The notes under the pieces: generated by a model
Told to the model about the DNA's origin: nothing
What the model saw: only the letters and a program-made list of their open reading frames with translations
The model's database searches: none
Position numbers and translations under genes: made by a program
Origin: Aquilaria yunnanensis
Lineage: Eukaryota > Streptophyta > Magnoliopsida > Malvales > Thymelaeaceae
Direction: 5' to 3'
Assembly (NCBI GenBank): GCA_039654915.1
Contig: CM077594.1
Span: forward strand, 96,176,893 to 96,240,892
Length of the DNA: 64,000 nucleotides
In this document: in pieces, positions 34,202-56,382 of the stretch
Numbering within the stretch: the first letter of the stretch is position 1
Layout: the number at the start of each line of letters is the position of its first letter

Positions 34202-34303
34202 TACGGTTTGGAAAATATCAAACTTTTAAAATAAATAAATTAAATAAAAAGATAAAAATCCATATTTTTACGATATGGATTGATTGTTTAAAATTTCACC
34301 AAA

Positions 34304-34653: not shown

Positions 34654-35277
34654 GCTTGGCGACTCCACTGGGGAGTCAATATTAGTGAGTCGAGCTTAAA
34701 GTTGATTTGTTTTGATTTACTTTGCTTTACTATTATGTGGATTTATATATTATATTTACTTAAGTAAACATGCATAATGCATTCACAAAATGAAGCTCTA
34801 TACCCGAGCTTCCTTAAATCAAACACGATTCTTTCTAAGCGGAATTGGTGTTGCTGTCCTTGTGAGGCCACGGTCTCCAAGCCTTCACCGGTTTCAAAGT
34901 AGCAAAGTAGTGTATTGCCTTCTGAGACGGTTAGTCTCTGCATGGGCCCACGAAAAGCTACGACTCGAATTAATCCATTCCTTACATAAACCCTAGAGGG
35001 TAAGGAATCGGGCCGTCACTATGATTTAGTGACGGGATTCGGGAACTATCCCTTGCCTTTTTGATAAACCACCTTCTGCATATAGAATTCCTTACTTTAC
35101 CTTAGAACCAGCCATTAAGAATTTTCTATACCTCGGTTCCCATTTCCATAGGTTTTGTTTTATCTATATGTTTGTATGATCTTATGTGTTACCTTTTTAC
35201 TAACTCTGTTTTTCCTTATTTTTCCGGCATACACATTTCATCATTAAAGATAAATATTTGGTGAAAGAACCATTATC
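34654..35277 (+). other. Untranslated leader between 5' LTR and ORF1
   Basis: It contains the primer-binding site at its left edge. The rest is non-coding by my reading; short frames at 34743-34996 on both strands are not recognisable. Confidence 0.6.
34657..34674 (+). other. Primer-binding site
   Basis: TGGCGACTCCACTGGGGA begins three bases after the LTR. Its complement ends in CCA, as a tRNA 3' end must. The choice of an arginine tRNA is from memory of Ogre elements. GACTCC and GGAGTC (34661-34677) could form a small hairpin over the site. Confidence 0.75.
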
Positions 35278-36972: not shown

Positions 36973-37165
36973 AAATAATAAGCTTTTGGTGAATGTAATT
37001 GAGAAATTCCACTATAATTCTTCTTTCACCAAGTATTTACAATATTCATGCATGCATCCATCACATCAATCATACACACATAGAATCTAATAAAATAAAT
37101 ATTTCCTTTAAAAGGGTAAAATTGGACCTCAACACCGATATTCAACTCGACTCCAAACAAGATTA
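36973..37165 (+). other. ORF1-gag spacer
   Basis: A 193-base AT-rich spacer with no frame. Gag is either translated internally or from another transcript; no splice pair is clear here. Confidence 0.4.
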
Positions 37166-38923: not shown

Positions 38924-38935
38924 GAAGTCAATATC

Positions 38936-40477
38936 ATGCCAAGACCACTAGTCATTCCAATCTCAAAATCTGCTCTCAAGCCTTTAAGAATTCAAGTTCC
39001 AAAGCCATTCCCGTACAAATCAGACAAAACTGTTCCATGGAACTATGGCTATACTTCTAACATCACATCAACTCCGTTAGAAGTTGGGGGCATGACTAGA
39101 AGCGGTCAGTGTTATTCTCCCGAGCAAATGAACAAGCTCCAACAAGAGAAGAATGTTACGGATCTAGCAAATGGACCTATTAACACATCTAAAGAGCAAG
39201 AGATGCCTCGAGCAGTAACAGATGAACAAGCTACTGAGTTTCTCAAACTCATAAAGCAAAGTGAATACAGTATCGTGGAGCAGTTGAACCGTCTGCCAGC
39301 AAAGATCTCCATACTTTCATTACTCTTAAGTTCTGATGCCCATCGAGAAGCTCTTCTCAAAGTCCTGAATAAGGCTTATGTTGAACAAGATATCTCCGTG
39401 AACAACTTTGACCACCTTGTCAACAACATCACGGCACAAAATCTCATCACATTCACTGACGATGAGATACCAGCAGAAGGAAGGGGTCACTCTAAGGCTC
39501 TACATATTTCGATTAAATACAAAGATCGGATTATGGCTAGAGTTCTGATCGACAATGGATCAGCTCTAAATGTAATGCCATTAGAAACTTTACATAAGAT
39601 CGGTTTAGACCCATCACACCTCAACAACAGTCATATTGTTGTTCGAGCATTTGACGGAACAAAGAGAGATGTGGTTGGAGAAATAGAGCTACCAATTGGG
39701 ATTGGTCCCTGTCTTTTCCATATCACATTCCAAGTCATGGACATTTCTCCATCTTATACTTGTCTGCTGGGAAGACCATGGATCCATATGGCTGGAGCAA
39801 TTCCTTCCTCATTACATCAAAAAATGAAATTCATCATTGAAGGAAAGATAATCACAGTCTTTGCTGAAGAAGACATTCTGCTATCTAGACCTGCGGATGC
39901 TCAATATGTTGAGGTCAATGAAAATATACCTGATTGCTCCTTCAGGTCTTTTGAGATTGTCAATGCTGCTTATGTCAGTGAATATGGAGAAGAACCCGTT
40001 CCTAACATCTCTAAAACAAGTCGCATGGTCGCCAAACTCATGATAAAAGGAGGATACTCACCAGGGTTAGGTTTGGGACAAGATTTACAAGGAATCCCAG
40101 AGCCATTGAAAATATCCGCAAATGAAGGGAAATACGGCCTAGGCTTCACACCGACAAGACATGATAAAATGAAGGCAGTAGCTGAAAAGAGAGAAAAGAG
40201 GATTGCACGATTAACAGGGCATCCTCTCCAGGAAAGAAATCTGGATATCCCTGAAATCACCGAAACGTTCGTGAGTGGTGGTCTCATTCCGAAAAATGAC
40301 AATGAAGGCAAGCTGACTATCAACATCAACAAGTCTTTTGAAAGTCTTTCTATTCAGGCAATCATCAGCGATTCACCTGAAGAGGAGGAGCTCGTTCAAC
40401 CTTGTGGCCCACGGGATGTGCTGAACAATTGGGAGGCGATAGAACTGCCTGTTATAATCGAAAGCTTTCCAAAGTAA
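38936..40477 (+). CDS. pro: Aspartic protease with G-patch domain, 513 aa
   Basis: It is in the same frame as gag, separated by one stop codon and 12 bases. The active site is VLIDNGSALNVMP with Asp206, the DNGS form usual in Tat elements rather than DTG/DSG. The flap and second half follow (FQVMDISPSYTCLLGRPWIH near residues 265-285). Residues about 355-405 are a G-patch (GGYSPGLGLGQDLQGIPEPL), which other Tat elements also carry at this place and which usually contacts RNA or helicases. The enzyme would cleave the Gag-Pol polyprotein. The stop at 40475 overlaps a splice donor; see the intron entry. Confidence 0.88.
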   Translation: MPRPLVIPISKSALKPLRIQVPKPFPYKSDKTVPWNYGYTSNITSTPLEVGGMTRSGQCYSPEQMNKLQQEKNVTDLANGPINTSKEQEMPRAVTDEQATEFLKLIKQSEYSIVEQLNRLPAKISILSLLLSSDAHREALLKVLNKAYVEQDISVNNFDHLVNNITAQNLITFTDDEIPAEGRGHSKALHISIKYKDRIMARVLIDNGSALNVMPLETLHKIGLDPSHLNNSHIVVRAFDGTKRDVVGEIELPIGIGPCLFHITFQVMDISPSYTCLLGRPWIHMAGAIPSSLHQKMKFIIEGKIITVFAEEDILLSRPADAQYVEVNENIPDCSFRSFEIVNAAYVSEYGEEPVPNISKTSRMVAKLMIKGGYSPGLGLGQDLQGIPEPLKISANEGKYGLGFTPTRHDKMKAVAEKREKRIARLTGHPLQERNLDIPEITETFVSGGLIPKNDNEGKLTININKSFESLSIQAIISDSPEEEELVQPCGPRDVLNNWEAIELPVIIESFPK

Positions 40478-40672
40478 TCTAATAGTAAAAACCTCCTAAA
40501 GAAAGGTTCAATCAATAGGGTGTAGTCTTTGTTTAAGTGAACCTTTTAGTTATTGCTTTTTATTCCAATAAAGTTGTGATTTATGCACATTGTAAATAAA
40601 GTACCAGTTTGCATCCATCTCATTCGTGCCATTTTTTTTCTCTTCTCTTTCTTTTCTCTCTGGATAATGCAG
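40474..40672 (+). other. Predicted intron between protease and RT
   Basis: The donor GTAATC begins at 40474, inside the last codon of the protease ORF, so the stop is within the intron. The acceptor AG is at 40671-40672, after a strong pyrimidine tract at 40632-40660. Removing these 199 bases keeps the reading frame open into pol with no stop before 40704. Elements of the Ogre group are known to carry an intron in this position, and partial splicing sets the Gag-Pol ratio. Confidence 0.75.
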
Positions 40673-40703
40673 ACCCAAAACTCTCTTTGATGACAATGAA
40701 AGA

Positions 40704-43700
40704 ATGAACTTTGATAATCCTGTAAACACTACCGACTCGGACGACGAAGATCTTCAAGTATCTCCTGAGCTATTAAAAATGATTGAGCAAGATGAAAAAG
40801 AAAGAGCAACAAGTCAAGAACCAACTGAGGTATTCAACCTAGGAGACAGTCAGGATGTAAAAGAAGTCAAGATTGGCACTTTATTCCCTCCTGAAGAAAA
40901 AGAAGAATTAGTCCATTTATTGAAAGAATATGTGGATGTATTCGCTTGGTCATACCAAGATATGCCCGGCTTAAGCTCAGACATTGTACTACACAAAATA
41001 CCCTTGAAACCTGGGGCGAAGCCTGTCAGACAGAAGTTACGAAGATTAAAGCCGGAGTTAATCTTAAGAGTAAAAGACGAGATTCAAAAGCTGTGGGATG
41101 CAGGATTCCTGGGGGTTGCTGAATATACAGAATGGGTGGTTAACATTGTCCCAGTCGAAAAGAAAGAAAGTGGGAAACTAAGAGTTTGTCAGGACTACCG
41201 GCCTTTGAACGAAGCCAGTCCTAAAGATAACTTCCCACTTCCTCATATTGATACACTGGTGGATAATACCGCAGGAAACTCCTACTTTTCCTTCATGGAT
41301 GGTTTTTCTGGATACAATCAAATCAAACTTGATCCAGATGACATGATAAAAACTGCTTTTATTACCCTTTGGGGTACCTTCTACTATAAGGTGATGCCTT
41401 TCGGGTTAAAGAATGCTGGTGCTACATATCAAAGAGCCATGGTCACGTTGTTCCATGACATGATGCATAAAGAAATTGAAGTATATGTGGACGACATGAT
41501 CGCCAAAACTTTCACTGCTGGGGGGCATCTAAAAGTGCTAAGAAAACTATTCGATAGACTTCACAAATATCAATTGAAGTTGAATCCTGCCAAATGTACT
41601 TTTGGAGCCTCTTCAGGAAAGTTATTGGGTTTCATAGTCAGCAAGGACGGGATTCGAGTTGACCCGAGTAAAGTCAAAGCGATACAAGAAATGCAACCCC
41701 CGAAGACTCCAAAACAAGTAAGAAGTTTTCTGGGTAGAATCAACTTCATAGCAAGGTTCATATCACAATTGACGTCCAAGTGTGAACCGCTTTTCAAATC
41801 ACTAAAGAAGAACAATCCGATTGAGTGGAATAACGAATGTCAAGAAGCGTTCGAGAAAATCAAACGATATCTATCAAATCCACCAGTCTTGATACCACCT
41901 CGATCCGGAGAACCGTTGATTCTATATTTATCCATACAGGATTCTTCATTAGGATCCGTATTGGGTCAACGTGATGAGACAAGCAAGAAGGAGCATGCAA
42001 TTTACTATTTGAGCAAAAAGCTTACCACATATGAAGCTAAATACTCAATAGTAGAAAAGTCCTGTTGTGCCCTTGCATGGGTAGCACATCGACTACGACA
42101 CTACATGCTCAACAACACAACATTACTGATCTCCAAGACTGACCCCATTAAGTACATTTTCGAGAAACCCGCTTTATCAGGCAGGATTGCAAAATGGCAA
42201 ATGCTGTTATCTGAATACGACATACAGTATGTCACCCAAAAGGCCGTAAAAGGAAGTGTGATCGCTGAATATCTGGCTGATAGAGCATTGGAGGATTATG
42301 AGCCCATGAGAATGGACTTTCCTGATGGAGATATAATGACGATAGAACAGGAAGTCGATGAAGAAAATGAAACATGGAAAATGGCATTCGATGGAGCATC
42401 TAATGCTTTGGGACAAGGGATCGGAGCTATACTCATCTCTCCAAGCGGAGAGCAGTTTCCCCTCACAGCAAAAATTACATTTCCTTGTACCAACAATATA
42501 GTAGAGTATGAAGCATGTGCTATGGGACTCCAAATGGCATTGGATTTGAAAGTGCGAGATCTCCGAGTCTATGGGGATTCCGCATTAGTCATATATCAAA
42601 TCAATGGAGAATGGGAGACAAGAGATTCAAAATTAATCCCTTACCAAAAGCTTATACTAGACATGACTCGAAGATTTAACAGTATAAGTTTCCATCATCT
42701 TCCAAGGGAAGATAATCAAATCCCAGACGCTTTAGCTACTTTGGCTGCTATGTACAAGATAAGCGACCCTGAGCATACTCCTGTGTTCGAGATGAAAATA
42801 ATAGATTCTCCAGCTTATTGCATGAGCATCGAAGAAGAATTGGATGGAAAGCCTTGGTATCATGATATCAAGAAATACCTCCAAGAACGAACATATCCAC
42901 TAGAAGCATCAGAAAATGACAAGAAATTTCTACGAAGATTGTCAATGGGTTTTCTTTTAAACTTAGACATACTCTACAAGAAAACCCCAGACTCGATGCT
43001 ACTTCGCTGTGTAGATACTCATGAAGCACGAAAGATCATGGAAGAAGTTCATTCTGGAATATGTGGAGCACACACTAGTGGTCATACCATGGCAAGACAA
43101 ATAATGAGGGCTGGCTACTATTGGCTCACATTGGAAAGTGATTGTATTAATCACGTGAGAAAATGTCACAAATGTCAAATATATGCCAACAAGATCCAAG
43201 CTCCACCCACCCCTCTTAATGTAACAGCAATACCTTGGCCTTTTGCCATGTGGGGAATTGACGTCATTGGAGCCATTACCCCTAAAGCTTCCAATGGTCA
43301 CAAATTCATCCTAGTGGCAATTGACTACTTCACTAAATGGGTAGAAGCTATGTCATATGCAAGTGTGACTCAAAAGGTGGTATGCCGGTTCATTAAGAAA
43401 GAAATCATTTGTCGTTATGGGCCGCCGGAATGTATCATCTCAGACAATGCCACGAACCTGAACAATGCAATGATGCAGACTTTGTGCCGGCAGTTCAAAA
43501 TCAAACATCTCAATTCGGCACCTTATCGACCAATGATGAATGGTGCAGTAGAAGCGGCCAATAAAAATATCAAGAGAATTGTTGAAAAGATGATCGTCAC
43601 TTACAAGGACTGGCATGAGATGTTACCTTTTGCACTACATGCTTATAGAACTTCTACCCGTACTTCTACTGGAGCAACACCTTTTTCTCTGGTATACGGT

Positions 43701-44102
43701 ATGGAGGCTGTATTGCCCATCGAAGTTGAAATACCTTCATTAAGGGTACTAATGGATACTCAATTAAGAGAAGCAGAATGGGTCAAAGCTAGATACGAGC
43801 AATTAAATCTAATTGATGAAAGAAGAATGATAGCCCTCTGCCATGGGCAACTTTATCAAAGAAGGATGATTCGTTCTTACAACAAAAAGGTTCGCCCACG
43901 ACAATTTCACGAGGGTGACATAGTGCTCAAGAAAATTTTACCCATGCAACATGATTCAAGAGGAAAATGGACACCAAATTATGACGGGCCATATGTCGTG
44001 AAGAAAGCATTTTCAGGAGGGGCACTAATTCTGACAGAAATGGATGGACGAGAATTACCGAAGCCAGTAAATTCGGATGCAGTAAAGAAATACTTTGCAT
44101 AA
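40704..44102 (+). CDS. pol: Pol: RT, RNase H, second RNase H, integrase
   Basis: An intact 1132-codon frame; after splicing it would be continuous with protease through 40673. Reverse transcriptase covers about residues 100-340 with YVDDM at 261-265. The first RNase H lies at about 400-530 and looks degenerate. A second, archaeal-like RNase H lies at about 558-690 with Asp563 (MAFDGAS), Glu in NNIVEYEACA, Asp in VYGDSAL and Asp in NQIPDALA. Integrase has an HHCC zinc region at about 775-830 (KCHKCQ) and catalytic Asp853, Asp914 and Glu950, a DD35E spacing. No chromodomain follows. The dual RNase H is diagnostic of the Tat lineage. All key residues are present, so the element may be autonomous. 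Confidence 0.93.
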   Translation: MNFDNPVNTTDSDDEDLQVSPELLKMIEQDEKERATSQEPTEVFNLGDSQDVKEVKIGTLFPPEEKEELVHLLKEYVDVFAWSYQDMPGLSSDIVLHKIPLKPGAKPVRQKLRRLKPELILRVKDEIQKLWDAGFLGVAEYTEWVVNIVPVEKKESGKLRVCQDYRPLNEASPKDNFPLPHIDTLVDNTAGNSYFSFMDGFSGYNQIKLDPDDMIKTAFITLWGTFYYKVMPFGLKNAGATYQRAMVTLFHDMMHKEIEVYVDDMIAKTFTAGGHLKVLRKLFDRLHKYQLKLNPAKCTFGASSGKLLGFIVSKDGIRVDPSKVKAIQEMQPPKTPKQVRSFLGRINFIARFISQLTSKCEPLFKSLKKNNPIEWNNECQEAFEKIKRYLSNPPVLIPPRSGEPLILYLSIQDSSLGSVLGQRDETSKKEHAIYYLSKKLTTYEAKYSIVEKSCCALAWVAHRLRHYMLNNTTLLISKTDPIKYIFEKPALSGRIAKWQMLLSEYDIQYVTQKAVKGSVIAEYLADRALEDYEPMRMDFPDGDIMTIEQEVDEENETWKMAFDGASNALGQGIGAILISPSGEQFPLTAKITFPCTNNIVEYEACAMGLQMALDLKVRDLRVYGDSALVIYQINGEWETRDSKLIPYQKLILDMTRRFNSISFHHLPREDNQIPDALATLAAMYKISDPEHTPVFEMKIIDSPAYCMSIEEELDGKPWYHDIKKYLQERTYPLEASENDKKFLRRLSMGFLLNLDILYKKTPDSMLLRCVDTHEARKIMEEVHSGICGAHTSGHTMARQIMRAGYYWLTLESDCINHVRKCHKCQIYANKIQAPPTPLNVTAIPWPFAMWGIDVIGAITPKASNGHKFILVAIDYFTKWVEAMSYASVTQKVVCRFIKKEIICRYGPPECIISDNATNLNNAMMQTLCRQFKIKHLNSAPYRPMMNGAVEAANKNIKRIVEKMIVTYKDWHEMLPFALHAYRTSTRTSTGATPFSLVYGMEAVLPIEVEIPSLRVLMDTQLREAEWVKARYEQLNLIDERRMIALCHGQLYQRRMIRSYNKKVRPRQFHEGDIVLKKILPMQHDSRGKWTPNYDGPYVVKKAFSGGALILTEMDGRELPKPVNSDAVKKYFA

Positions 44103-45468
44103 TGAAGAAATTTTCAAACAGAAGGGGAGAAGTGGATACAGGGTTACCAAAGTTTATTTGATCAAAGTTGTCAAAGAGAGCTTTCTTCTCTTACACTTTC
44201 ATTATCTATCTGCACCCAAGATTTTCATATTACTCATAAATAAAAAGCCAATTTTCTTTAACTTACCTTAGATTCTCACGTTCAAAATGCTAAAGTCGCT
44301 TCTATCCAGTTCTTTTCCTTCAAATCTCACATTCTTACTAGCCTTAAGTGTGCAATAAATTATGACTTTTGAAGGAAGAATAGTAATAATTAAAACTTAG
44401 AAAAAACAAAGACCGTAGATTACTTTGATAAGCTTTATGAATTAAAACAGGTAAGATTGAGGTCCTGCTTTGCGAGCGGCACAGAACATAGGCTAACAAA
44501 GAAGAAGGAGTAACAAATCTTTGGGAGATAGCCTTGGTGGTAGCCTGAATGATCGCTTCAGAAGTCTTAACACGTCCATGTCAGCAAGAAAGAATCATAC
44601 TCACGAATATCTCAACAGGGACAATTATCCAGAGAGGCATAAAGTACGAGGCGGACATTAAGGAAATTGAAGCCAAAATTTAAGAACAAATCAAGGAAAG
44701 AAGATTTTTGAAAAGAGTTAGGCTTTTGAGACAATGGACAATAGCTGGAAAGCGAGACAATGAACAACAGCTGGAAAGCAAGACAATGAACAACAGCTGG
44801 AAAGTGAAACAATGGACAACAGTTGGAAAGCATAAAGAGATTCAACGATAGAAGGCAATTACAAAGAGGATCCAGTAAAGCAAAGATATAAAAAAATAAT
44901 AAATCCATCAGTTACACATGCTCTGCATTCATGCATTTCACATCATGCATGCATGGCATACAGAACAAGGATCAAATGGGAAGCGTATCCACCGCACAGT
45001 CACAGCAGTATAAGCTGACGTCTCAGTGACATCCGTTTTTACCAATCTACCGCTGGATGCACAGCTGATATAGTAGACCCAGCCCCATCAGCAATTCAAG
45101 GATAAAGTAGACAATATTGTCAAAATCCTGGTAATCAATTCAATAATCGAGGCTACACCGGGATGGACAGAATTGACGCCAGCTTAGCAGTATCCAAGAT
45201 AAGAAATAGCTATGGTCAAAGATAAGCGTGGATATCGAGAAATATTGTCGTCGAAAGCAGACAATGGATTCAATAATCAAGGACTGGATCAATGTCATGC
45301 CTGATGAGATATCAAAGATAAGAAATATCTATGATACTAAAATAAAGTAGGATCCACTTTTCCGGTTAAACGGCGGATACGGTACCCCGTGACTCTCAAG
45401 TCGGTTCTCTCAGTTGCCCATAATAACTGATTCCTTCACCCCTTCTTTCTTTTACTTCCTCCTAGAAA
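44103..45468 (+). other. Post-pol spacer with short repeats
   Basis: No supported ORF. It holds a polypurine-like run (agaaggggagaag, about 44119-44132) just after pol, perhaps a relic or internal second-strand primer; four exact-length copies of a 26-bp unit (44728-44831); and a partial duplication around 45139-45215 and 45268-45334 sharing ttcaataatc and gataagaaat. The last 100 bases (from about 45370) are the 5' part of a duplicated unit shared with the second and third cargo ORFs (ccccgtgact, then aataactgattc). Confidence 0.55.
44728..44831 (+). repeat. 4 x 26-bp tandem repeat
   Basis: Units begin at 44728, 44754, 44780 and 44806. Each reads close to gagacaatgaacaacagctg followed by gaaagc. 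Confidence 0.85.
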
Positions 45469-46017
45469 ATGGATCCTACTTTTTCCGCCTTGCGAAAGTA
45501 TTTCCCTTCTCTCCCAATGAACATCCTAAAAAAGATCTACCAAGTTCGCTGTGAACGATTAAGAGCTCTGATGCATAAAGGAATCCCTGAAGATGTGCGG
45601 TGGTTAATTGAAGCTAAGGTTCGTCTGGCAGGTGAAATCCCAGAGGCATTTGTGTCTTACATGCCTGGTGTTGGCAAAAGTTCTTATGCCAGAAAAAGAA
45701 GAGCGAAAAGATTACAAGTCTGCCATAAATGTGGTAGGTGGACTTGTAAGACTAGGTGTCGTTCTTTAGGAATGATCTCCAATAATCGAGAAGATAAAAT
45801 ACGGTTCATCAAGAATGGCTTGAGTAAGGACTCATTGGATGATATCCAATTGACTCTTGAGACGCATTCTTGTGGATCTGTGCAACGTGAAATTCTTGAT
45901 TTATGGAGTATTTTTCATGAAGAACGAGACCGTTACAGTCCCGGGAATCTGACTTTAAACGACCCTGTTTGCCGGCTTGTAAGAAAGCTAGATGGGAAGC
46001 AGATCCTCGACTCATAG
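45469..46017 (+). CDS. Cargo ORF 1: basic zinc-cluster protein, viral NABP-like
   Basis: An intact 182-codon frame after a CT-rich leader, with ATGG context. Residues 7-28 (ALRKYFPSLPMNILKKIYQV) are amphipathic. Residues 69-81 form a GKSSYARKRRAKR basic patch, followed at once by Cys85-x2-Cys88-x4-Cys93-x3-Cys97, then FIKNGL at 113-118. This order (G-[KR]-S, two to five Arg/Lys, Cys cluster, F-[IV]-K-x-G) resembles the cysteine-rich nucleic-acid-binding proteins at the 3' end of carlavirus and vitivirus genomes, several of which suppress RNA silencing. The C-terminal 60 residues have no counterpart I know. The similarity is from pattern recognition only. It likely binds nucleic acid. It is first of three tandem paralogues; copies have stayed open while diverging, which suggests selection. 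Confidence 0.72.
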   Translation: MDPTFSALRKYFPSLPMNILKKIYQVRCERLRALMHKGIPEDVRWLIEAKVRLAGEIPEAFVSYMPGVGKSSYARKRRAKRLQVCHKCGRWTCKTRCRSLGMISNNREDKIRFIKNGLSKDSLDDIQLTLETHSCGSVQREILDLWSIFHEERDRYSPGNLTLNDPVCRLVRKLDGKQILDS

Positions 46018-46179
46018 AAGCCGTTAATGCCGTTACTGGACGTAAAACCAGTGGAAGATGTAAGCCACAGTCACAATTACTGTACATACAGTTTGTTATA
46101 TTTGGAAAAATTTGCATTTTCTTTTGACAGATGTACATGCTCCCCTAAGTGTAATCGACACGTTATCCCTTTTCATCAC

Positions 46180-46186
46180 TATAAAT
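46180..46186 (+). promoter_or_regulatory. TATA-like box before cargo ORF 2
   Basis: CTATAAATGCG lies about 125 bases upstream of the ATG at 46307, after tttcatca. The same word in the same setting occurs before ORF 3 at 47005-47011. Possible internal promoters duplicated with the genes. Confidence 0.4.
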
Positions 46187-46306
46187 GCGTGTTCTTCCTT
46201 CTGATTAAACAACAGATAAGATACCCCGTGACTTCTAAAGTCGATTATTCCAGTTTCCTGCAATAACTGATTCATTTCCCTCTTCTCTCAAATTCTTCTC
46301 TCATCA

Positions 46307-46855
46307 ATGGATTCTACTCTTTCTGTACTGCGAAAATACTTTCCTTCCCTCCCACTAAAAGTCCTTAAAAAGATCTACCTTGCTAGATGTGAAAGAATCA
46401 GAGTTTTTACACGCAAAGGCATTCCCGACAATGTGCAGTGGATAATTGAAGCTAAGGTCCGTTTGGCGGGTGAAGTTCCAGATGCATTTATGCCCCGCAT
46501 GCCCGGTTTAGGTAAAAGCCGTTATGCCAAAAGGCGAAGAGCAAAGAGACTAGGCGTGTGTTATAAATGTGGGCGATGGAATTGTAATACTAAATGTCGC
46601 TCTTTAGGATACATCTCCATAAATCGTGAAGATAAAAGAAAATTCATTAAGAATGGCCTGCGTAAGGAGTCTCTGAAAGATATCCGAGAGACTCTTGAAA
46701 CGCATTCTTGCGGAAAAGTGCAAGGTGAAATTATCGGTTTATGGAGGACTTACCATAAAGAACGAAACCGTTACAGTCTTGGGAATGTGATTTTAAACGA
46801 CCCCGTTTGTCAGTTTGTAAGAAAACTAGATGGGAAGCAAATCCCCGACTTATAG
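46307..46855 (+). CDS. Cargo ORF 2: basic zinc-cluster protein, viral NABP-like
   Basis: Paralogue of the ORF at 45469, also 182 codons. The basic patch is GKSRYAKRRRAKR, the Cys cluster C-x2-C-x4-C-x3-C is conserved at the same positions (CYKCGRWNCNTKC), and FIKNGL and the C-terminal LNDPVCQFVRKLDGKQIP segment are kept. The upstream leader and about 60 bases after the stop (gaagccattactggac) are also shared, so the duplicated unit of about 800-840 bases includes flanks. Role as for ORF 1. Substitutions relative to the others fall mostly outside the Cys cluster and basic patch. Confidence 0.72.
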   Translation: MDSTLSVLRKYFPSLPLKVLKKIYLARCERIRVFTRKGIPDNVQWIIEAKVRLAGEVPDAFMPRMPGLGKSRYAKRRRAKRLGVCYKCGRWNCNTKCRSLGYISINREDKRKFIKNGLRKESLKDIRETLETHSCGKVQGEIIGLWRTYHKERNRYSLGNVILNDPVCQFVRKLDGKQIPDL

Positions 46856-47004
46856 AAGGCATTGAAGCCATTACTGGACATGAATTAGTGGAAGATGAGA
46901 GCCACAGTCATGATTGCTGTACATATAAGCTGTCATTTGTCTTTTCTTTTGGCAATAATGTACTTACTTCCGTAAGTGTAATAAACGCATTATCCTTTCA
47001 TCAC

Positions 47005-47011
47005 TATAAAT
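47005..47011 (+). promoter_or_regulatory. TATA-like box before cargo ORF 3
   Basis: TATAAAT in the same setting as at 46180, about 110 bases before the likely start at 47120. Confidence 0.4.
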
Positions 47012-47119
47012 GCGTGTTCTTCCTTCTGGATACGGTACTCCATAACTCCCAAATTCAGTTATTTCCATTTCCTACAATCACTAATTTCTTTCTTTTTCTC
47101 TTAAATGCCTCATTCATCA

Positions 47120-47668
47120 ATGGAGCCTTCTCTTTCCGCTCTACGAAAATATTTCCCTTCTTTCCCAATAAATGTTCTTAAAAAGGTTTATCAAGCTAGA
47201 TGTGAACGATTCCGACTATTTATGCACAAAGGCATTCCTGATAATGTGCGATGGCTAATCGAAGCTAAAGTTCGTTCGGCTGGTGAAGTTCCAGATGCGT
47301 TCTTTCCCCGTATGCCCGGCTTTGGTAAAAGCGTTTATGCCAAAAAGAGAAGAGCAAAGAGGCTAGGCGTCTGTCACAATTGTGGATGGTGGATTTGCGG
47401 CAATAAATGTCGTTCTCCAGGAGTGATCACCAGAAATCGTAATGATAGAATAAAATTCATCAAGAATGGCTTGCGTAAGGAATCTCTGGAAGATATCCGA
47501 GAGGTTCTTGAAGCGCATTCTTGCGGAATAGTGCAATTTGAGGTTGTTGGATTATGGATAATTCTCCAAAAAGAACGAGAACGTTACAGTCTTGGGAATC
47601 TGACCCTAAACGACCCTGTTTGCCAGTTTGTGAAAAAGCTAGATGAGATGCAAATCACTGATTCATAG
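47120..47668 (+). CDS. Cargo ORF 3: basic zinc-cluster protein, viral NABP-like
   Basis: Third paralogue. I choose the ATG at 47120 (MEPSLSALRKYFPS) rather than 47105, because it gives 182 residues and aligns with the other two starts. The basic patch is GKSVYAKKRRAKR and the cluster CHNCGWWICGNKC keeps the C-x2-C-x4-C-x3-C spacing; FIKNGLRKESLEDI follows. It shares the post-stop segment with the other units, after which a different tandem repeat begins. All three copies are uninterrupted, with no frameshift or stop. Confidence 0.72.
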   Translation: MEPSLSALRKYFPSFPINVLKKVYQARCERFRLFMHKGIPDNVRWLIEAKVRSAGEVPDAFFPRMPGFGKSVYAKKRRAKRLGVCHNCGWWICGNKCRSPGVITRNRNDRIKFIKNGLRKESLEDIREVLEAHSCGIVQFEVVGLWIILQKERERYSLGNLTLNDPVCQFVKKLDEMQITDS

Positions 47669-47699
47669 AAAGCATTGAAGCCGTTACTGGACGCAAAGC

Positions 47700-48190
47700 C
47701 AGTAGAAGACGGAACAAGGTCACGATTACTGTACGTGCTAGCTGTCGCTTTTGAAATTTTCCTCCCCTTTTGGTAATAATGTATCCACTCCTGACATGAA
47801 CCAAAGTCACGATTACTGTACGTGCTAGCTGTCGCTTTTGAAATTTTCCTCCTCTTTCAGCAATAATGTATCCACTCTTGACATAAGCCATAGTCACGAT
47901 ACTGTACATGCTAGCTGACGCTTTTGAAATTTTCCTCCCATAATGTACCCACTCCTGACATGAGCTATAATTATGACTACTGTATATACCTGCCACTTTT
48001 GAAATTTTCCTTCTCATCCGACAATCATGTACCTACTCCTGACATAAGCTACAGTCGCAACTACTGTACATGCTAGCAGCTATTTTGAAAATTTTCCTCC
48101 TCTTTTAACGATAGTGTACCCATACCTGACCAGAGTCATACCCGTGACTACTATGAATAGCTGGCAATAATGTATCCATTCTTGAAAAAT
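47700..48190 (+). repeat. Degenerate ~80-bp tandem repeat between cargo ORF 3 and LOG
   Basis: Five to six degraded units share cacgattactgta, gctagctg, ttttgaaattttcctcc and aatgtatccactc followed by tgacat. The word cacgattactgtac and its flank also follow the stop of each zinc-cluster ORF, so the repeat appears to have grown from the 3' flank of those genes. Confidence 0.75.
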
Positions 48191-48217
48191 AAAATTATTG
48201 CCTTATCTCTTCATCTC

Positions 48218-48227
48218 TATAAATATA
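48218..48227 (+). promoter_or_regulatory. TATA box before the captured LOG gene
   Basis: TATAAATATA lies 40 bases before the LOG ATG (48258), followed by cctcttttctcac, a typical plant start region. This suggests the LOG ORF may have its own short-leader promoter. Confidence 0.5.
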
Positions 48228-48257
48228 TCCTCTTTTCTCACAAGGGTAAGGATAGGA

Positions 48258-48887
48258 ATGGAGAAAACCCCAACTCGTAAATCCCGAAGTATTTGTGTAT
48301 TTTCTGGGGCTTTTCCAGGAAAAGATGAAGAGTATTTAAAAGCAGCCAACCATTTGGGTAGAGTATTAGCTGAGCGAAAAATACATTTAGTTTATGGAGG
48401 AGGTAGTGTCGGATTAATGGGAGGTGTAGCATCAGCAGCATCTCTAGGAGGAAGTCAAGTTCTGGGCATTATCCCTGGACCTCTGAAATTTATTTCTGGG
48501 GGCACGATTGGAGAAGAATTAGTGGTTAAAAATTTACAAGAGCGTGTGTTACAAATGCTTTTAAATGCTGATGCTTTTATCGCTCTACCAGGTGGTTTTG
48601 GCACATTGGGAGAAGTCTTTCAAATTGCTTCTATGGCCCAACTTAATTTGCATAAGAAACCCATTGGGCTTTTAAATGTTAACAATTTCTTTACAGGTCT
48701 GATAGCTTTTATGGATTATGCTATGCAGAAGAATTTTATATCAAGAGTGGCACGGCGAATCATAATATCCGCAACAACTGCTGAAGAATTGCTAGATAAA
48801 ATACAAGCTTTTGTTCCTGAACCAGATCCAGCAATGATTCAGATAGACTGGACGCGACAGTCTTTCCCGAACAGTTCGATCCCATAA
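48258..48887 (+). CDS. LOG: LOG cytokinin riboside 5'-monophosphate phosphoribohydrolase (captured)
   Basis: An intact, intronless 209-codon frame inside the retrotransposon. I start at 48258 (MEKTPTRKSRS) because upstream codons to 48198 are unlike the family. Residues 47-55 (GGGSVGLMG) and 111-119 (PGGFGTLGE) are the nucleotide-binding and PGGxGTxxE signature; catalytic Glu119 and Arg96 (LQER) are present with the usual 23-residue spacing. LOG enzymes release free, active cytokinin bases from nucleotide precursors in one step, in cytosol and nucleus. Length is normal. The nearest relatives by memory are plant LOGs of the TIGEEL...LLNADAFIALPGG type. Host LOG genes have several introns, so a spliced mRNA was probably captured. 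The frame is open and the motifs are intact, so it may be active. Confidence 0.93.
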   Translation: MEKTPTRKSRSICVFSGAFPGKDEEYLKAANHLGRVLAERKIHLVYGGGSVGLMGGVASAASLGGSQVLGIIPGPLKFISGGTIGEELVVKNLQERVLQMLLNADAFIALPGGFGTLGEVFQIASMAQLNLHKKPIGLLNVNNFFTGLIAFMDYAMQKNFISRVARRIIISATTAEELLDKIQAFVPEPDPAMIQIDWTRQSFPNSSIP

Positions 48888-49403
48888 TAGTCCTCTACTA
48901 ACCCTGTTGAAATATTGTGGAAGAAGAAGTGATCCGATCCGTTTTGCTTGTCCTTTAGTTTTATTATCAGCATTTTCTTTCGTGTTTTAGTTTTTCTTTC
49001 AGGGAATTTCTTTTTTTATCTTATAAGATAGTCTCGTCCATGCTGATATTAAAACCATAGGACAATGCCATTAGGTTGGAATGGCTGAGTAAAGAGTAAT
49101 TTTTATTGCTCTTGAGACGCATCCTATTAGGTCTACTAGGCATAACATTTTAGGATAGTTAAGCTTCAACCTTATTTGGATGACATATCTCTCAAGCGAA
49201 TCTATATTTACTAAAGAAAATATTAGATGAACCTTGGATATTGATTCCAAACATCCGTTCCCTTTACATAATTTGTTAGCGATATTGTCATCATCAAGAT
49301 TCACTCATTTTATCGAAGTCTAAAATTTCGCACTCGCCTATTATGCAAATTCACATTTTCGAAGAAAATTATTCCAATTCTAATTGCTTTCATATAAATT
49401 TCG
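48888..49403 (+). other. LOG 3' flank
   Basis: Non-coding by my reading. It opens with tandem stops, then T-rich sequence with ttttatc words, and could contain the LOG poly(A) region. The minus-strand frame 49071-49304 has no domain. Confidence 0.4.
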
Positions 49404-52400
49404 CTCGAGGTTCAAGGAGATTTCCTTAACCTCATTCCATCAATTTTCCTTCAAACGATAGGAGAGTTCCTATCGTCGAGGTTCTAAGGTAGGGCCCTTA
49501 ACCTCAAAATCATCAATTTTCCTTCAAACGATAGGAGAGTTCCTATCGTCGAGGTTCTAAGGTAGGACCCTTAACCTCATTCAATCAATTTTCCTTCAAA
49601 CGATAGGAGAGTTCCTATCGTCGAGGTTCTAAGGTAGGACCCTTAACCTCAAAATCATCAATTTTCCTTCAAACGATAGGAGAGTTCCTATCGTCGAGGT
49701 TCTAAGGTAGGACCCTTAACCTCAAAACAATCAATTTTCCTTCAAACGATAGGAGAGTTCCTATCGTCGAGGTTCTAAGGTAGGGCCCTTAACCTCAAAA
49801 TCATCAATTTTCCTTCAAACGATAGGAGAGTTCCTATCGTCGAGGTTCTAAGGTAGGACCCTTAACCTCATTCAATCAATTTTACTTCAAACGATAGGAG
49901 AGTTCCTATCGTCGAGGTTCTAAGGTAGGACCCTTAACCTCAAAATCATCAATTTTCCTTCAAACGATAGGAGAGTTCCTATCGTCGAGGTTCTAAGGTA
50001 GGACCCTTAACCTCATTCAAACAATTTTCCTTCAAACGATAGGAGAGTTCCTATCGTCGAGGTTCTAAGGTAGGGCCCTTAACCTCAAAATCATCAATTT
50101 TCCTTCAAACGATAGGAGAGTTCCTATTGTCGAGGTTCTAAGGTAGGACCCTTAACCTCAAAAACAATCAATTTTACTTCAAACGATAGGAGAGTTCCTA
50201 TCGTCGAGGTTCTAAGGTAGGACCCTTAACCTCAAAATCATCAATTTTCCTTCAAACGATAGGAGAGTTCCTATCGTCGAGGTTCTAAGGTAGGACCCTT
50301 AACCTCATTCAAACAATTTTCCTTCAAACGATAGGAGAGTTCCTATCATCGAGGTTCTAAGGTAGGGCCCTTAACCTCAAAATCATCAATTTTCCTTCAA
50401 ACGATAGGAGAGTTCCTATTGTCGAGGTTCTAAGGTAGGACCCTTAACCTAAAAAACAATCAATTTTCCTTCAAACGATAGGAGAGTTCCTATTGTCGAG
50501 GTTCTAAGGTAGGGCCCTTAACCTCAAAATCATCAATTTTCCTTCAAACGATAGGAGAGTTCCTATTGTCGAGGTTCTAAGGTAGGACCCTTAACCTCAA
50601 AATCATCAATTTTCCTTCAAACGATAGGAGAGTTCCTATCGTCGAGGTTCTAAGGTAGGGCCCTTAACCTCAAAATCATCAATTTTCCTTCAAACGATAG
50701 GAGAGTTCCTATCGTCGAGGTTCTAAGGTAGGACCCTTAACCTCATTCAATCAATTTTACTTCAAACGATAGGAGAGTTCCTATCGTCGAGGTTCTAAGG
50801 TAGGACCCTTAACCTCAAAATCATCAATTTTCCTTCAAACGATAGGAGAGTTCCTATCGTCGAGGTTCTAAGGTAGGACCCTTAACCTCATTCAAACAAT
50901 TTTCCTTCAAACGATAGGAGAGTTCCTATCGTCGAGGTTCTAAGGTAGGGCCCTTAACCTCAAAATCATCAATTTTCCTTCAAACGATAGGAGAGTTCCT
51001 ATTGTCGAGGTTCTAAGGTAGGACCCTTAACCTCAAAAACAATCAATTTTCCTTCAAACGATAGGAGAGTTCCTATCGTCGAGGTTCTAAGGTAGGGCCC
51101 TTAACCTCAAAATCATCAATTTTCCTTCAAACGATAGGAGAGTTCCTATTGTCGAGGTTCTAAGGTAGGACCCTTAACCTCAAAATCATCAATTTTCCTT
51201 CAAACGATAGGAGAGTTCCTATCGTCGAGGTTCTAAGGTAGGGCCCTTAACCTCAAAATCATCAATTTTCCTTCAAACGATAGGAGAGTTCCTATCGTCG
51301 AGGTTCTAAGGTAGGACCCTTAACCTCATTCAATCAATTTTACTTCAAACGATAGGAGAGTTCCTATCGTCGAGGTTCTAAGGTAGGACCCTTAACCTCA
51401 AAATCATCAATTTTCCTTCAAACGATAGGAGAGTTCCTATCGTCGAGGTTCTAAGGTAGGACCCTTAACCTCATTCAAACAATTTTCCTTCAAACGATAG
51501 GAGAGTTCCTATCGTCGAGGTTCTAAGGTAGGGCCCTTAACCTCAAAATCATCAATTTTCCTTCAAACGATAGGAGAGTTCCTATTGTCGAGGTTCTAAG
51601 GTAGGACCCTTAACCTCAAAATCATCAATTTTCCTTCAAACGATAGGAGAGTTCCTATCGTCGAGGTTCTAAGGTAGGACCCTTAACCTCAAAATCATCA
51701 ATTTTCCTTCAAACGATAGGAGAGTTCCTATCGTCGAGGTTCTAAGGTAGGACCCTTAACCTCAAAACAATCAATTTTCCTTCAAACGATAGGAGAGTTC
51801 CTATCGTCGAGGTTCTAAGGTAGGGCCCTTAACCTCAAAATCATCAATTTTCCTTCAAACGATAGGAGAGTTCCTATTGTCGAGGTTCTAAGGTAGGACC
51901 CTTAACCTCAAAATCATCAATTTTCCTTCAAACAATAGGAGAGTTCCTATCGTCGAGGTTCTAAGGTAGGGCCCTTTACCTCAAAATCATCAATTTTCCT
52001 TCAAACGATAGGAGAGTTCCTATCGTCGAGGTTCTAAGGTAGGACCCTTAACCTCATTCAAACAATTTTCCTTCAAACGATAGGAGAGTTCCTATCGTCG
52101 AGGTTCTAAGGTAGGACCCTTAACCTCAAAATCATCAATTTTCCTTCAAACGATAGGAGAGTTCCTATCGTCGAGGTTCTAAGGTAGGACCCTTAACCTC
52201 AAAACAATCAATTTTACTTCAAACGATAGAAGAGTTCCTATCGTCGAGGTTCTAAGGTAGGACCCTTAACCTCAAAATCATCAATTTTCCTTCAAACGAT
52301 AGGAGAGTTCCTATCGTCGAAGTTCTAAGGTAGGACCCTTAACCTCAAAACAATCAATTTTACTTCAAACGATAGGAGAGTTCCTATCGTCGAGGTTCTA

Positions 52401-52470
52401 AGGTAGGACCCTTAACCTCAAAATTATCAAATTTTCTCTTCAACGATAGGAGAGTTCTTATCGCAGAGGC
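49404..52470 (+). repeat. Array of ~42 copies of a 73-bp double-hairpin unit
   Basis: Units of about 73 bases run from 49455 to 52443, with a degenerate unit at each end. Each unit has ACGATAGGA-GAGT-TCCTATCGT, a perfect 9-bp hairpin, then GAGGTT...AAGG...CCTT...AACCTC, a second stem. The spacer between units comes in a few forms (aaaatcatc, attcaatc, attcaaac, aaaacaatc). The order of forms repeats at larger steps: the form with ttttacttc returns at 49876, 50751 and 51334, the latter two 583 bases (8 units) apart. Variation inside the stem is mostly G-U compatible (attgtcg for atcgtcg). The array lies in the 3' untranslated region, as the repeats of other Tat elements do. Confidence 0.95.
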
Positions 52471-52537
52471 TCTAAAAAAAAATTTTCCTTAACCACATAG
52501 TTTAGGCGGCGAGAAGGTTCTCAATGCCTAGCTAAGA

Positions 52538-52623
52538 CGGACGAAATTTGGTAACTACTTTGCATACATCATGTCCCATGAAGCATGCAAAGGGGGGCAG
52601 CTGTTGACACCCAATTTCGTCCG
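52538..52623 (+). promoter_or_regulatory. Inverted repeat flanking the polypurine tract
   Basis: CGGACGAAATTTGG (52538-52551) is the inverse of CCAATTTCGTCCG at the start of the 3' LTR (52611-52623), with one unpaired T. In element RNA this would fold the polypurine tract into a loop. Confidence 0.6.
52588..52601 (+). other. Polypurine tract
   Basis: CAAAGGGGGGCAGC directly precedes the TG of the 3' LTR. This is the expected primer for second-strand DNA synthesis. Confidence 0.85.
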
Positions 52624-55600
52624 GCCTTTTTTTAAAAAAAAAAAAAATTTAAAAAAAAAAAAAAAAAACTAATTAAAAAAATTATTATTATTATTATTAT
52701 TATTACTGCTAAAAAATTTTAATTATGTTAATTAGTTTAAAATATATTTTTATTTTGAGAAGATTTGATTTAAAATAATATATGTGTGAATATGTATGTG
52801 TTTGGAATAAAAATAAAATTTCAGAAAAAAATGACAAAAAAATTAAAAGTTTGAGGTAAAAATGACAAAATTGAGAAGTTTCGGATAAAATTGACAAATT
52901 CTGAAAGTTTCAGGAGCTTTGGGTAATTTTTCGCGTCAATTTTGGGCCTAAACGGACGTTTCTAGCCCAAATTGACAGAAAACGTTAAAATTGTCAAAAT
53001 CAGAAGCTTCTGAGCTTCTCCAGAGCTGGAGTAACGTAAAGGACTGAAACTGTCATTTTACCAATTTAAAAGATAAGTTTGATATTTTTTATTAATTTAT
53101 CCGTCCACAGTTCAGCTAAGCTCCTTCTATAAATACCCCCCCAAATTCAGTGCTGAACACAAAAAATCAGAGAAAAAAGTTCAGAGCTCCGTTTTAAAAA
53201 TAGAGAAAATTACAGCCTTATTCCCTAGCCTCTCCTCCTTCTGCCAGAAAGTCTCAAAATTTTATTTTTCTACGATTTGACCATCTCTTTCGTTTGATCT
53301 CCTTCGTTGTTCTCTCTCTCTCTCCTCTCGTTTTCTCTCTCTTTCTCCTCCTGCCGTCACGCTGTCCCGCTGCCGACGCCGTCGCCGGTCGCCGTTTGCT
53401 CCCACGCCGTCCCGCCGCCGTCTTTTTCTCCTTTCCGTTTTTCCTTCCGCCGCGTTTCTTCTCTCCCTCCGCCGGCTGCTGCCTGCGGCTCCTCCGCCGC
53501 CCTCCGCCCACGCCGCCGTCGCCCCTCCGCCCACGCCGCCGTCGCCCCTCCGCCCACGCCTCGCCGCCCCACGCCCGTGCTCGCCTCCCTGCCGTGCCAG
53601 CTGCGCTTCGTCGCGTTTTCTGTTTTCCCAGCAAAACAGAATTTCAAATTCATTTCCCAAGGGTAAAACCTCCTTTCAGTCCTTCATCTTTTCAATTCTT
53701 TTCATTTTGGTCACTAATCTTTTTATTTTGTTTTTTTTTCAGAATTAATTACTAACTTTATTTTTTTTACTTGTGTATTTATTTGTTTATTATTGTTATT
53801 GTTACTAACCTTTTTTTTTTTTTGTTATTATTAACTTGTTAACTAACTTACTAACAACTAACTTTTAACATTATTATTGTTACTAACCTTTTAATTTTTG
53901 CATTATTACTAACTTTTATTACTGTTAATTAATTTAATCAACTTGGTTAATTAACAATTAATTAATTTGGCTAAATTTTATTATTGTTGTTAATTAATTA
54001 ATTTAATTAACTTGACTAACTTTTTATTATTGTTGTTAACAATTAATTTAATTAAACTTGGCTAATTTTTATTATTGTTGTTAATTAATTTAATCTAACT
54101 TTTTACTAACCTTTTTTATTTTTATTAACTAACTAATCCAACTAATCTAACTATATTAATTGTGCTAACTTTTATTATTATTGTGTTATTAAAGTGGATG
54201 GCCAAAAAGCCCCACTTTATTAATTGAATTTTTTTTATGATTAAAAGATAAAAAAAGGAATTTTATGTGAATAAAAAAGCCCCACTTTTTTTAATTTTGA
54301 AACAAAGTTTTTATTCCTTTTAATAAACAAACATAATGAAATAATTCAAAAACTAAAATAAATAAATAAATAAACATAAAATCATTCTTTTAATACATCT
54401 TTAAAATTAATAATTAATGAAATATAAAAAAAAATTTAAAACTCCATGACCAAATGATCCGCCAGGATCCATGGCTCGGAAATATTTTTAAATAAAATAT
54501 ATAAATAAATTTTTTCTTTATAAAAAAATAAAAAAAAACTTTAGACTAATATATTAATTATCTATTAATATATAATTTTTTTTTAGTTTTCTTTATTAAT
54601 AAAAAGAATAAAAAGCGTAAAATTTTTGGGTTAATATTTTTCAGTAATATTTTATTTATTTCTTTTAAAATAATAAAATATAAATTTTTTTAGTAAAAAG
54701 AATAAAAAAAAGTAATTTTTTTTGGGTTAATATTTTTCAGTAAAATTTATTTCTTTTAAAATAATAAAATATAACTTTTTAATTTTCTCTTTTAATAAAA
54801 AGAATAAAAAGAGTAAAATTTTTGGGTTAATATTTTATTCAGTAATATTTTACTTATTTCTTTTAAAATATAACTTTTTTTTAGTTTTCTTTATTAATAA
54901 AAAGAATAAAAAGAGTAAATTTTGAGTTAATATTTTTCAATAATATTTTATTTATTTCTTTTAAAATATAATTTTTTTTAGTTTTCTTTATTAATAAAAA
55001 GAATGAAAAGAATAAAAATTTTGGGTTAATATTTTATTCAGTAATATTTTACTTATTAAAAGATATAACTTTTTGTTTCCTTTATAAAAATCTTAATCAA
55101 ATAATTTCAAAATAATACAAAATAAAACAAAAATAATTGAATTTTCTCTTAAATATTTTTGACTTATTGATTAGATATATTTTCAGAAATATAAATTAAA
55201 ATTAAAAAAAAAATCTTTCATCAAACAAAGAAGAATATAAAAAATAAAAATATCAAGACTTTTGTTTTAAAATACATATAAGTTTTCAGTTAAATAATCT
55301 TTTATTCCAAAATAAATTAAATAAATATCAAAACTTTTCTTCTTTTGTTTAAAATATACATATAAATTTTTGATTCTCTTAATAAAACAATTACTTTTGG
55401 TTAATCTTTTATAAAAAAAATAATAATAATAATAAAAAATAAAAAAATAATAAATAAAAAATAAAAAATTTTAGTTCATGGTATATTGGCTGGAAACTGT
55501 CTCGTGCCCGCTTTTGAGCTGCTTCACCTGGTGAAGATGGTCTGGCTGAGTAACAACGCCCCGTACCATGATCAAAATTTTTATTTTTAAATTCTTTGAT

Positions 55601-56382
55601 TCCTTTAAATTAACTTCTTATTAAATAAAAAAATTAATTTTTTTTAATTCTTTTATAAATTGAGTAATTCTTTAAATAATAAATATCCTTCATTAAACAA
55701 GAAAAAAATCAAAAAAAGAAAAGATAAGAAAAAGAAAAGAAAGATAAGAAAAAGAAAACAAAAGAAAGAAAAGAAAAGAAAATTAAAAAGTAAAAATAAG
55801 AAGAAAAAGAAAGAAAGAAAAAGTAAAAATATAAAGATAAATTTAGTAATTAAACTAAAAATTAATAATAAGAATTAAATAATTACGATAAATTAAATCA
55901 ATTTCCATATCCGGATGATCCGGCAGGATCTACGGTTTGGAAAATATCAAACTTTTAAAATAAATAAATTAAATAAAAAGATAAAAATCCATATTTTTAC
56001 GATATGGATTGATTGTTTAAAATTTCACCAAATTCCGTGTCCAAATGACTCGGCAGAGTCCATGGTTCGGAATCAAAATCTTCCGTGTCCAAATGACTCG
56101 GCAGAGTCCATGGTTCGGAAGTATAAAATTTTATCCGAATTAATTACCAAAATCCACATTTTCGACTAATTCAGGTAAAATATCTAAATTAACTGAAAAG
56201 TTTTAAAAGCAAAGTAAAACAAAATTAAAATCAACTAAGGTGCCAATTTTGGACGCTATAACAAAGTTGTTTTAGCGTAACCGTACTCCCGATCCCCGAA
56301 CTCTCGCAGACCAATTTTAAGGTGATCAATCGACCTAAGAAACTTGATTGGTGGTGACTCCAGAAAACCCGACGTTGCCACA
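52602..56382 (+). repeat. 3' LTR (3781 bp)
   Basis: Matches the 5' LTR almost base for base, with the same TG start and CA end. Differences include one fewer 24-bp GC-rich unit and a replaced block near 54273-54287, where aaaaagccccactt has been copied from about 70 bases upstream. About ten single-base changes were seen by eye, for example gcttctccag for gcttatccag. Confidence 0.95.

Follow-up and report, generated by a model that had tools for sequence, protein, structure and literature searches.

Tandem accessory genes with profile similarity to plant-virus nucleic-acid-binding proteins in a Ty3/gypsy retrotransposon of Aquilaria yunnanensis

The window analysed here is a stretch of 64,000 nucleotides from Aquilaria yunnanensis (Thymelaeaceae; GenBank assembly GCA_039654915.1, contig CM077594.1, positions 96,176,893 to 96,240,892 of the forward strand). 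It contains a complete, recently active long terminal repeat (LTR) retrotransposon of the Ty3/gypsy type whose accessory genes include three tandem open reading frames (ORFs), N1 to N3. Their products resemble proteins with which flexuous plant viruses bind nucleic acids (nucleic-acid-binding proteins, NABPs). These are given below in window coordinates, with their scores against the Pfam families Viral_NABP (PF05515) and Carla_C4 (PF01623):

45469..46017, + strand: N1, NABP-like ORF of 182 amino acids (aa); Viral_NABP 28.8 bits, Carla_C4 24.1 bits
46307..46855, + strand: N2, NABP-like ORF of 182 aa; Viral_NABP 32.7 bits, Carla_C4 24.8 bits
47120..47668, + strand: N3, NABP-like ORF of 182 aa, open already from 47105; Viral_NABP 26.6 bits, Carla_C4 21.9 bits

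N1 to N3 form a tandem triplication downstream of pol, with start-to-start distances of 838 and 813 bp and, for N3, an alternative start 15 bases upstream. They are 67-71% identical to one another in protein and 75-80% in nucleotide sequence; their coding stretches (546 bp) align without a gap, and the two spacer comparisons have 29 gap columns each. In each protein, GKSxYA leads into a K/R-rich run that is followed by a C-x2-C-x4-C-x3-C cluster and FIKNGL, the layout of N2 being KRRRAKR, the cysteine cluster and then NREDKRKFIKNGL. The four cysteines, K75-K80 and the F, I, K, G and L of FIKxGL are conserved to at least 90% in 46 aligned homologues, and because of this conservation, together with ratios of nonsynonymous to synonymous substitution (dN/dS) well below 1, the motif pattern goes beyond chance. 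The ORFs and alignments thus bear out the preliminary description of the window, made from its letters, which had reported three open, diverged 182-codon paralogues with these motifs. In a tree of 123 NABP sequences, N1 to N3 fall into a clade with the database proteins P0001 and P0002 (support 0.998). Since P0001 groups nearest to N3 and P0002 nearest to N1, the triplication probably predates the split from the source or sources of these two proteins.

All three proteins exceed the curated Pfam cut-offs of both Viral_NABP (23 bits) and Carla_C4 (20.9 bits), with Viral_NABP E-values of 1.5e-6 (N1), 9.6e-8 (N2) and 7.2e-6 (N3), and no other Pfam family matches them at E<=10. Among the 46 homologues, 42 match Viral_NABP and 43 match Carla_C4 (E<=0.01), other families being rare or weak: SHQ1 in two and P2_N in one (best E-value 5.7e-4). 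Seven of ten hand-picked homologues lie above the Viral_NABP cut-off, the match covering up to 93-104 residues and extending beyond the cysteine cluster; one of the ten also matches a ZNF592-type finger (E 0.049). The passing Pfam matches are modest, at 22-35 bits. One database source labels such a protein 'Viral nucleic acid binding'. An Arg-rich patch stands directly before the zinc cluster, as in viral NABPs (KRRRAKR-like; K75-K80 conserved to at least 90% in the 46 homologues). The profile search against the carlavirus and viral NABP families therefore shows the similarity that had been proposed, and the suggestion that the element holds a gene akin to a viral NABP gene stands on this profile and on the 42 to 43 matching homologues.

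The closest layout among known proteins is that of the vitivirus protein p10. Grapevine virus A p10 is described as an RNA-binding silencing suppressor in which KRRRARR precedes a compact finger that is followed by HKLDRLRFVKEGRV (PMC9104223), a stretch unconserved among the other vitiviruses compared there. The stretch after the finger can be compared as DRLRFVKEG in p10 (PMC9104223) and EDKRKFIKNG in the element. Common to both are the Arg-rich patch directly before the compact cysteine cluster and the Viral_NABP profile. The element protein differs in its length of 182 aa, in its conserved N- and C-terminal parts and in being encoded by an LTR retrotransposon. With the carlavirus cysteine-rich proteins (p12 of chrysanthemum virus B, CVB; Carla_C4), N1 to N3 share the basic patch followed by a C4 cluster, along with scores above the family cut-off. 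By profile and layout, N1 to N3 are members of the NABP family that come nearest to vitivirus p10, and are not carlavirus C4 proteins.

A fourth accessory gene, overlooked in the preliminary description, follows N3:

48258..48887, + strand: LOG-like ORF (cytokinin riboside monophosphate phosphoribohydrolase family) of 209 aa; PF03641, E-value 1.3e-30

It scores 106.7 bits against PF03641 (cut-off 27) and 149.6 against TIGR00730 (cut-off 96.35), matches the Arabidopsis At2g37210 chain 2a33_A (E 9.3e-52), and has as its closest relative in the protein search a database protein that is 92% identical. The LOG motif consists of PGGxGTxxE and a preceding Arg; both are kept, and the next Lys, present in two Arabidopsis proteins, is replaced. 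YgdH/LOG-like extra ORFs have been described in Ty3/gypsy elements of Citrus and Populus (Steinbauerova 2011, via PMC9289625).

A protein identical to N2 is encoded at no fewer than 150 loci of the 842-Mb genome, among them the window, a lower bound given that the exact-N2 search scored 150 of 8650 candidates. Copies L001 to L040 were chosen for an identical N2, and are consequently biased towards young copies and uninformative on N2 itself. N1, N2 and N3 are open in all eight copies L001 to L008, and LOG in the six of these in which it was read. All four ORFs occur in each of 20 further copies, hand-picked from the 150, where N1 is open without gap or stop in 18, N3 in 18 and LOG in 17; partial alignments add one more N3 from the second codon and two more LOG ORFs to base 620. 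The order pol, two or three NABP genes, LOG was found in the copies read. It is also that of L041, which a search with an Orobanche NABP brought up and which has two NABP genes (87% identical to N1 and 85% to N3) and a LOG at 95%; its pol is in pieces, and its NABP and LOG ORFs are open.

Two of the eight copies studied closely, L001 and L002, have open NABP ORFs and no protease or pol match. L001 (the same copy as L009 and L042) consists of LTR, leader, an open gag (594 codons from stop to stop, 89% identical to the window gag over the match), some 1.5 kb in which neither protease nor pol is matched, the NABP genes and an open LOG. L002 (the same as L010) is built in the same way with a more diverged gag, and has 1.5 kb of spacer in common with L001 at 91%. 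Between the two, dN is 0.017 and dS 0.079 for N1, and dN 0.026 and dS 0.146 for N3. They are two copies of a subfamily that lacks pol and keeps the NABP genes, LOG having been read in L001. Exchange with full copies may have helped to keep these genes, since both copies agree with the window at 99.5% in N2, as L001 does in N3. Pol is also mostly missing from L003 (L013) and L040 (L043), which are cut near the pol end by stretches of other LTRs or rearranged elements. Mosaic copies were also noticed: in L027, an N2 with about 99.5% identity to the window stands beside an N3 and a LOG at 89-90%, and in L001 and L002 the same N2 identity is combined with an N1 at 92-93%. Such mosaics suggest recombination between subfamilies, or conversion.

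The accessory genes are under purifying constraint, somewhat less so than pol. Ratios were estimated with the NG86 method, and single ratios were taken from pairs with dS above 0.05, a level passed in 10 of 115 comparisons, with two copies counted twice; wherever it was passed, dN/dS lay between 0.05 and 0.34. The window paralogues N1 to N3 gave 0.26-0.31 by NG86 and up to 0.375 by YN00, with bootstrap upper limits of 0.41-0.51. Against the window, N1 gave 0.10 in L001, 0.14 in L002 and 0.12 in L008; N3 gave 0.16 in L002, 0.26 in L027 and 0.05 in L038; and LOG gave 0.10 in L009 (again L001) and 0.25 in L027. The comparison of the window with L041 gave 0.20 for N1, 0.23 for N3, 0.28-0.34 for N2, 0.15 for LOG and 0.08 for the first 280 codons of pol. 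For comparison, pol gave 0.09-0.10 (L014, L015) and the protease ORF 0.09 (L014). Pooled over the 20 further copies, the ratio was 0.23 for N1, 0.22 for N3 and 0.16 for LOG. The earlier suggestion that selection keeps the ORFs open is upheld by these values, and neither of the two outcomes that would speak against it and against viral kinship, a neutral dN/dS and a lack of profile similarity, was found.

Three of the accessory genes are preceded by a TATA-type motif:

46173..46186, + strand: TATA-type motif TCATCNCTATAAAT before N2; motif search, exact in 28 of 28 copies
46998..47011, + strand: TATA-type motif before N3; motif search, exact in 28 of 28 copies
48211..48224, + strand: TATA-type motif before LOG; motif search, exact in 26 of 28 copies

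The motif lies 134 bp upstream of the ATG of N2, 122 bp upstream of that of N3 and 47 bp upstream of that of LOG, and has no match before N1 in the window. Its three matches in the window compare with 0.35 expected, a count that is no blind test given that the motif was first spotted by eye, and its conservation among 28 mostly young copies is weak evidence. In L041 it is present only before the second NABP gene, the exact pattern being absent before LOG.

Homologues are found in other plants. A protein search gave 146 matches at E<=1 and a profile search 420 at E<=10, and among the best 120 of each the named relatives, which share 52-63% identity with N2, come from Xanthoceras, Acer, Rhamnella, Orobanche and Populus. 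They represent four eudicot orders, Sapindales, Rosales, Lamiales and Malpighiales, the order having been looked up for the four species other than Acer. Two gene models, hinting that the NABP gene may also occur in another Ty3/gypsy lineage, are P0082 from Rhamnella, which joins an NABP to an integrase-like tail that shares 25% identity over 116 aa with the window pol, and P0114 from Orobanche, which joins one to a stretch without clear match (E 0.22) to the window protease ORF. Both appear to be of Athila type; Pfam names neither, so this remains a lead. A further Rhamnella model, P0094, joins NABP and LOG, its NABP part falling below the Pfam cut-off, and NABP and LOG matches that share longest contigs of equal size (8723, 4511, 2425 and 2128) suggest that the two genes may be linked elsewhere.

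The element that carries these genes is built as follows:

30835..56382, + strand: complete Ty3/gypsy LTR retrotransposon insertion, placed as Tat type (Ogre-like), about 25.5 kb; LTR pair, ACCTC on both sides, domains
30835..34653, + strand: 5' LTR, 3819 bp; alignment with the 3' LTR
34654..34683, + strand: stretch just 3' of the 5' LTR, the expected place of the primer binding site; by position
35278..36972, + strand: ORF of 564 aa upstream of gag, of the DUF7745 / plant mobile domain type; Pfam PF24924, E-value 4.2e-55
37166..38923, + strand: gag ORF, 585 aa; Retrotrans_gag PF03732, E-value 2.4e-12
38936..40477, + strand: ORF in the protease position with a G-patch, 513 aa; G-patch PF01585, E-value 3.7e-8, aspartyl protease models below threshold
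40704..44102, + strand: pol ORF, 1132 aa, with reverse transcriptase (RT), RNase H, a second (archaeal-type) RNase H and integrase; Pfam RVT_1, RT_RNaseH, RVT_3, Integrase_H2C2, rve
52602..56382, + strand: 3' LTR, 3781 bp, with a G-rich polypurine-like tract before it; LTR alignment

The LTR pair, the 5-bp target duplication ACCTC flanking both ends, and the gag, RT, RNase H and integrase domains confirm that the NABP-like ORFs lie within a retrotransposon, as had been proposed. The two LTRs differ at 19 of 3781 aligned bases (Kimura two-parameter distance 0.0050), which at a plant substitution rate of 1.3e-8 per site per year would date the insertion to roughly 0.2 million years ago. A second RNase H (RVT_3, PF13456, E 5.6e-20) follows RT_RNaseH, and an archaeal-type RNase H in addition to the first has been described in the Tat lineage (PMC6317226). 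The protease-position ORF ends at 40477 and pol starts at 40704, leaving a spacer of 226 bp; in Ogre elements, the Gag-protease and RT ORFs are parted by a spacer averaging 274 bp (PMC6317226). The second RNase H would accordingly place the element in Tat, and its length, LTR size and split ORFs fit an Ogre-like placement. In the window copy, the gag and protease ORFs share one frame with a stop between them (38921-38935); this stop is absent from all four other copies examined, and intact copies thus exist. The ORF upstream of gag also scores 31.6 bits against the plant mobile domain family PF10536 (cut-off 34.9), a domain that MAIN and MAIL1 carry, host factors tied to the silencing of transposable elements (PMC9289625).

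Taken together, N1 to N3 may be read as copies of an accessory gene of Ty3/gypsy elements that shares ancestry with the NABPs of flexuous viruses and that would counter silencing, alter transcription or do both, with LOG as a modifier of the host cell; we consider this explanation to have about an even chance of being right. The NABPs would be produced along with expression of the element, which TATA-type promoters inside it, in front of N2, N3 and LOG, may help to drive. Their basic patch and C4 zinc cluster would bind small or double-stranded RNA, DNA or both, whereby the RNA or chromatin of the element could escape small-RNA silencing, or transcription of host and element could shift. The adjacent LOG-like enzyme might raise active cytokinin locally and so keep cells dividing and permissive. 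CVB p12 is reported to be a nuclear transcription activator and a weak cytoplasmic silencing suppressor, and to lower the 24-nucleotide share of the small interfering RNAs against green fluorescent protein (PMC7588395). From such viral relatives we infer that the NABPs of the element may suppress silencing.

Several observations weigh against this explanation. The kinship is one of profiles; two scans of viral contigs found no viral relative by sequence, and no virus is named among the best 120 of the 146 or the best 120 of the 420 protein matches. Three of the ten hand-picked homologues fall below both Pfam cut-offs. A Foldseek search with two weak models (mean predicted local distance difference test, pLDDT, 65 and 70) against viral models (BFVD) gave no match at E<=0.001; flexuous-virus proteins took 14 of the top 16 rows in the first search, none of them significant alone. 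Structure comparison, which had been put forward along with the profile search, has thus given no significant viral match. The preliminary description had also seen in N1 to N3 the motif order of carlavirus and vitivirus proteins. This holds for the profiles, the basic patch and the vitivirus-like layout, but not for the cysteine spacing: C-x2-C-x4-C-x3-C departs from the carlavirus finger, C-X2-C-X12-C-X4-C (PMC8839810), and from the finger printed for grapevine virus A p10, C-X-C-X4-H-X4-C (PMC9104223), which is similar in size and order. For LOG, the NCBI equivalog NF058542 is not reached (98.7 bits, against 300). As to selection, the changes in most pairs are too few to give a ratio, single young pairs reach 0.5 or more (e.g., N3 in L001), and mosaic exchange between copies could be an alternative cause of the likeness of the ORFs. 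Finally, the retention of gag and NABPs in copies that lack pol would also suit a structural role.

The history may also have run in the reverse direction, the gene being old in plant retrotransposons and having been taken by flexuous RNA viruses from element transcripts, which is possible if somewhat doubtful. The spread of the named relatives over four orders agrees with it, as does the patchy viral occurrence reported within Betaflexiviridae, in Vitivirus, Carlavirus and some Trichovirus (PMC4472227). Conservation in the N- and C-terminal parts, beyond the reach of the Pfam match, suits either direction. Rather tentatively, one or more NABP genes and LOG, in part with their own promoters, could be seen as a portable cassette that has moved between lineages and is kept even by copies without pol. 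Such a cassette, with LOG activating cytokinin, would act in the manner of a viral pathogenicity module, dampening small-RNA silencing and driving cells into division, and would draw on a gene pool shared with the NABP silencing suppressors of flexuous RNA viruses.

That the NABPs act mainly in the nucleus, on promoters of the element or the host as CVB p12 does (PMC7588395), we regard as somewhat unlikely to be their chief role; the KKRRAK run resembles a nuclear signal and the partner LOG gene hints at the control of cell growth, and such an activator would overlap with the silencing or transcription role preferred here, and so is no true alternative to it. A nucleocapsid-type helper, in which the NABPs would chaperone or package the very long element RNA rather than act against the host, is unlikely, though it was judged a little less so because copies without pol keep gag with the NABPs, the open gag of L001 standing beside NABPs and LOG, and the diverged gag of L002 beside NABPs, without protease or pol match. 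A basic patch and a zinc cluster are nucleocapsid traits as well, and the window gag has no zf-CCHC match at E<=1; gag does show Cys/His clusters by eye, packaging leaves the co-kept LOG unexplained, and there are suppressors among the viral proteins to which the profiles relate the NABPs. Convergence of an unrelated small zinc protein, to which the short basic domain, the low bit scores, the three homologues below both cut-offs and the fold searches without significant match would lend themselves, is improbable given that both viral families match the three paralogues and most of the homologues while other families are rare or weak, that the match runs past the cysteine cluster, and that flexuous-virus proteins, none of them significant alone, lead the first fold search.

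LTR retrotransposons with accessory genes are already known; in the present element such genes have kinship with viral suppressors. The Citrus and Populus Ty3/gypsy elements also carry a YgdH/LOG domain; the section text of PMC9289625 that deals with them and with 15 non-canonical domains in all names no NABP. Retand elements carry TRP28 ORFs that are antisense and have another domain than NABP, and in the survey that includes Retand no sense ORF is stated to encode a known domain (PMC11963269). Insect long interspersed nuclear elements (LINEs) that have captured viral RNA helicase domains offer a parallel in a gene with kin in positive-strand RNA viruses and reported silencing suppression; they differ in being non-LTR elements with the helicase domain inside ORF1 or ORF2, whereas the genes described here are separate and in tandem (PMC5563155). 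A plant transposon encoding its own anti-silencing protein is also known (Fu et al. 2013), related elements being hypomethylated through shared motifs (PMC13317346). Among the papers listed by searches of the open-licence literature, no title or abstract opening mentions an NABP in retrotransposons. The LOG-bearing elements of Citrus and Populus are said to have been described as Athila-like, and the window element is of Tat type. The anti-silencing element is reportedly a VANDAL DNA transposon, and we know of no relation of its factor to viral proteins.

With its LOG partner, the evidence of selection and the retention of NABPs in copies without pol, the observation is stronger than first claimed; it is weaker in the finger pattern, the direction of transfer and the function. 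If the kinship-based explanation is true, LTR retrotransposons, which are held in check by the antiviral small-RNA machinery, use a gene akin to viral silencing suppressors, and a shared gene links RNA viruses and retrotransposons in plants, comparable to the helicases of insect LINEs. One could then test directly how elements of very large size come to high copy number, and annotations that call such ORFs viral or host genes would need correcting. The LOG neighbour makes hormone manipulation by a transposon testable, and the apparent selection for function in NABPs and LOG points to an element that brings along means of its own to act on the host.

Two tandem arrays complete the 3' part of the element:

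47715..48130, + strand: 87-bp tandem repeats, 4.9 copies, in the interval between N3 and LOG; repeat search
49424..52475, + strand: 73-bp tandem array of about 42 head-to-tail units with hairpins, just before the 3' LTR; repeat search, folding

By eye, the 87-bp unit is like the spacer 3' of the NABP ORFs, and LOG may sit behind decayed NABP flanks. A 146-base piece of the 73-bp array folds far better than its shuffles (z -5.4), and shows for the unit a perfect 9-bp hairpin with a 4-base loop beside a second, imperfect hairpin.

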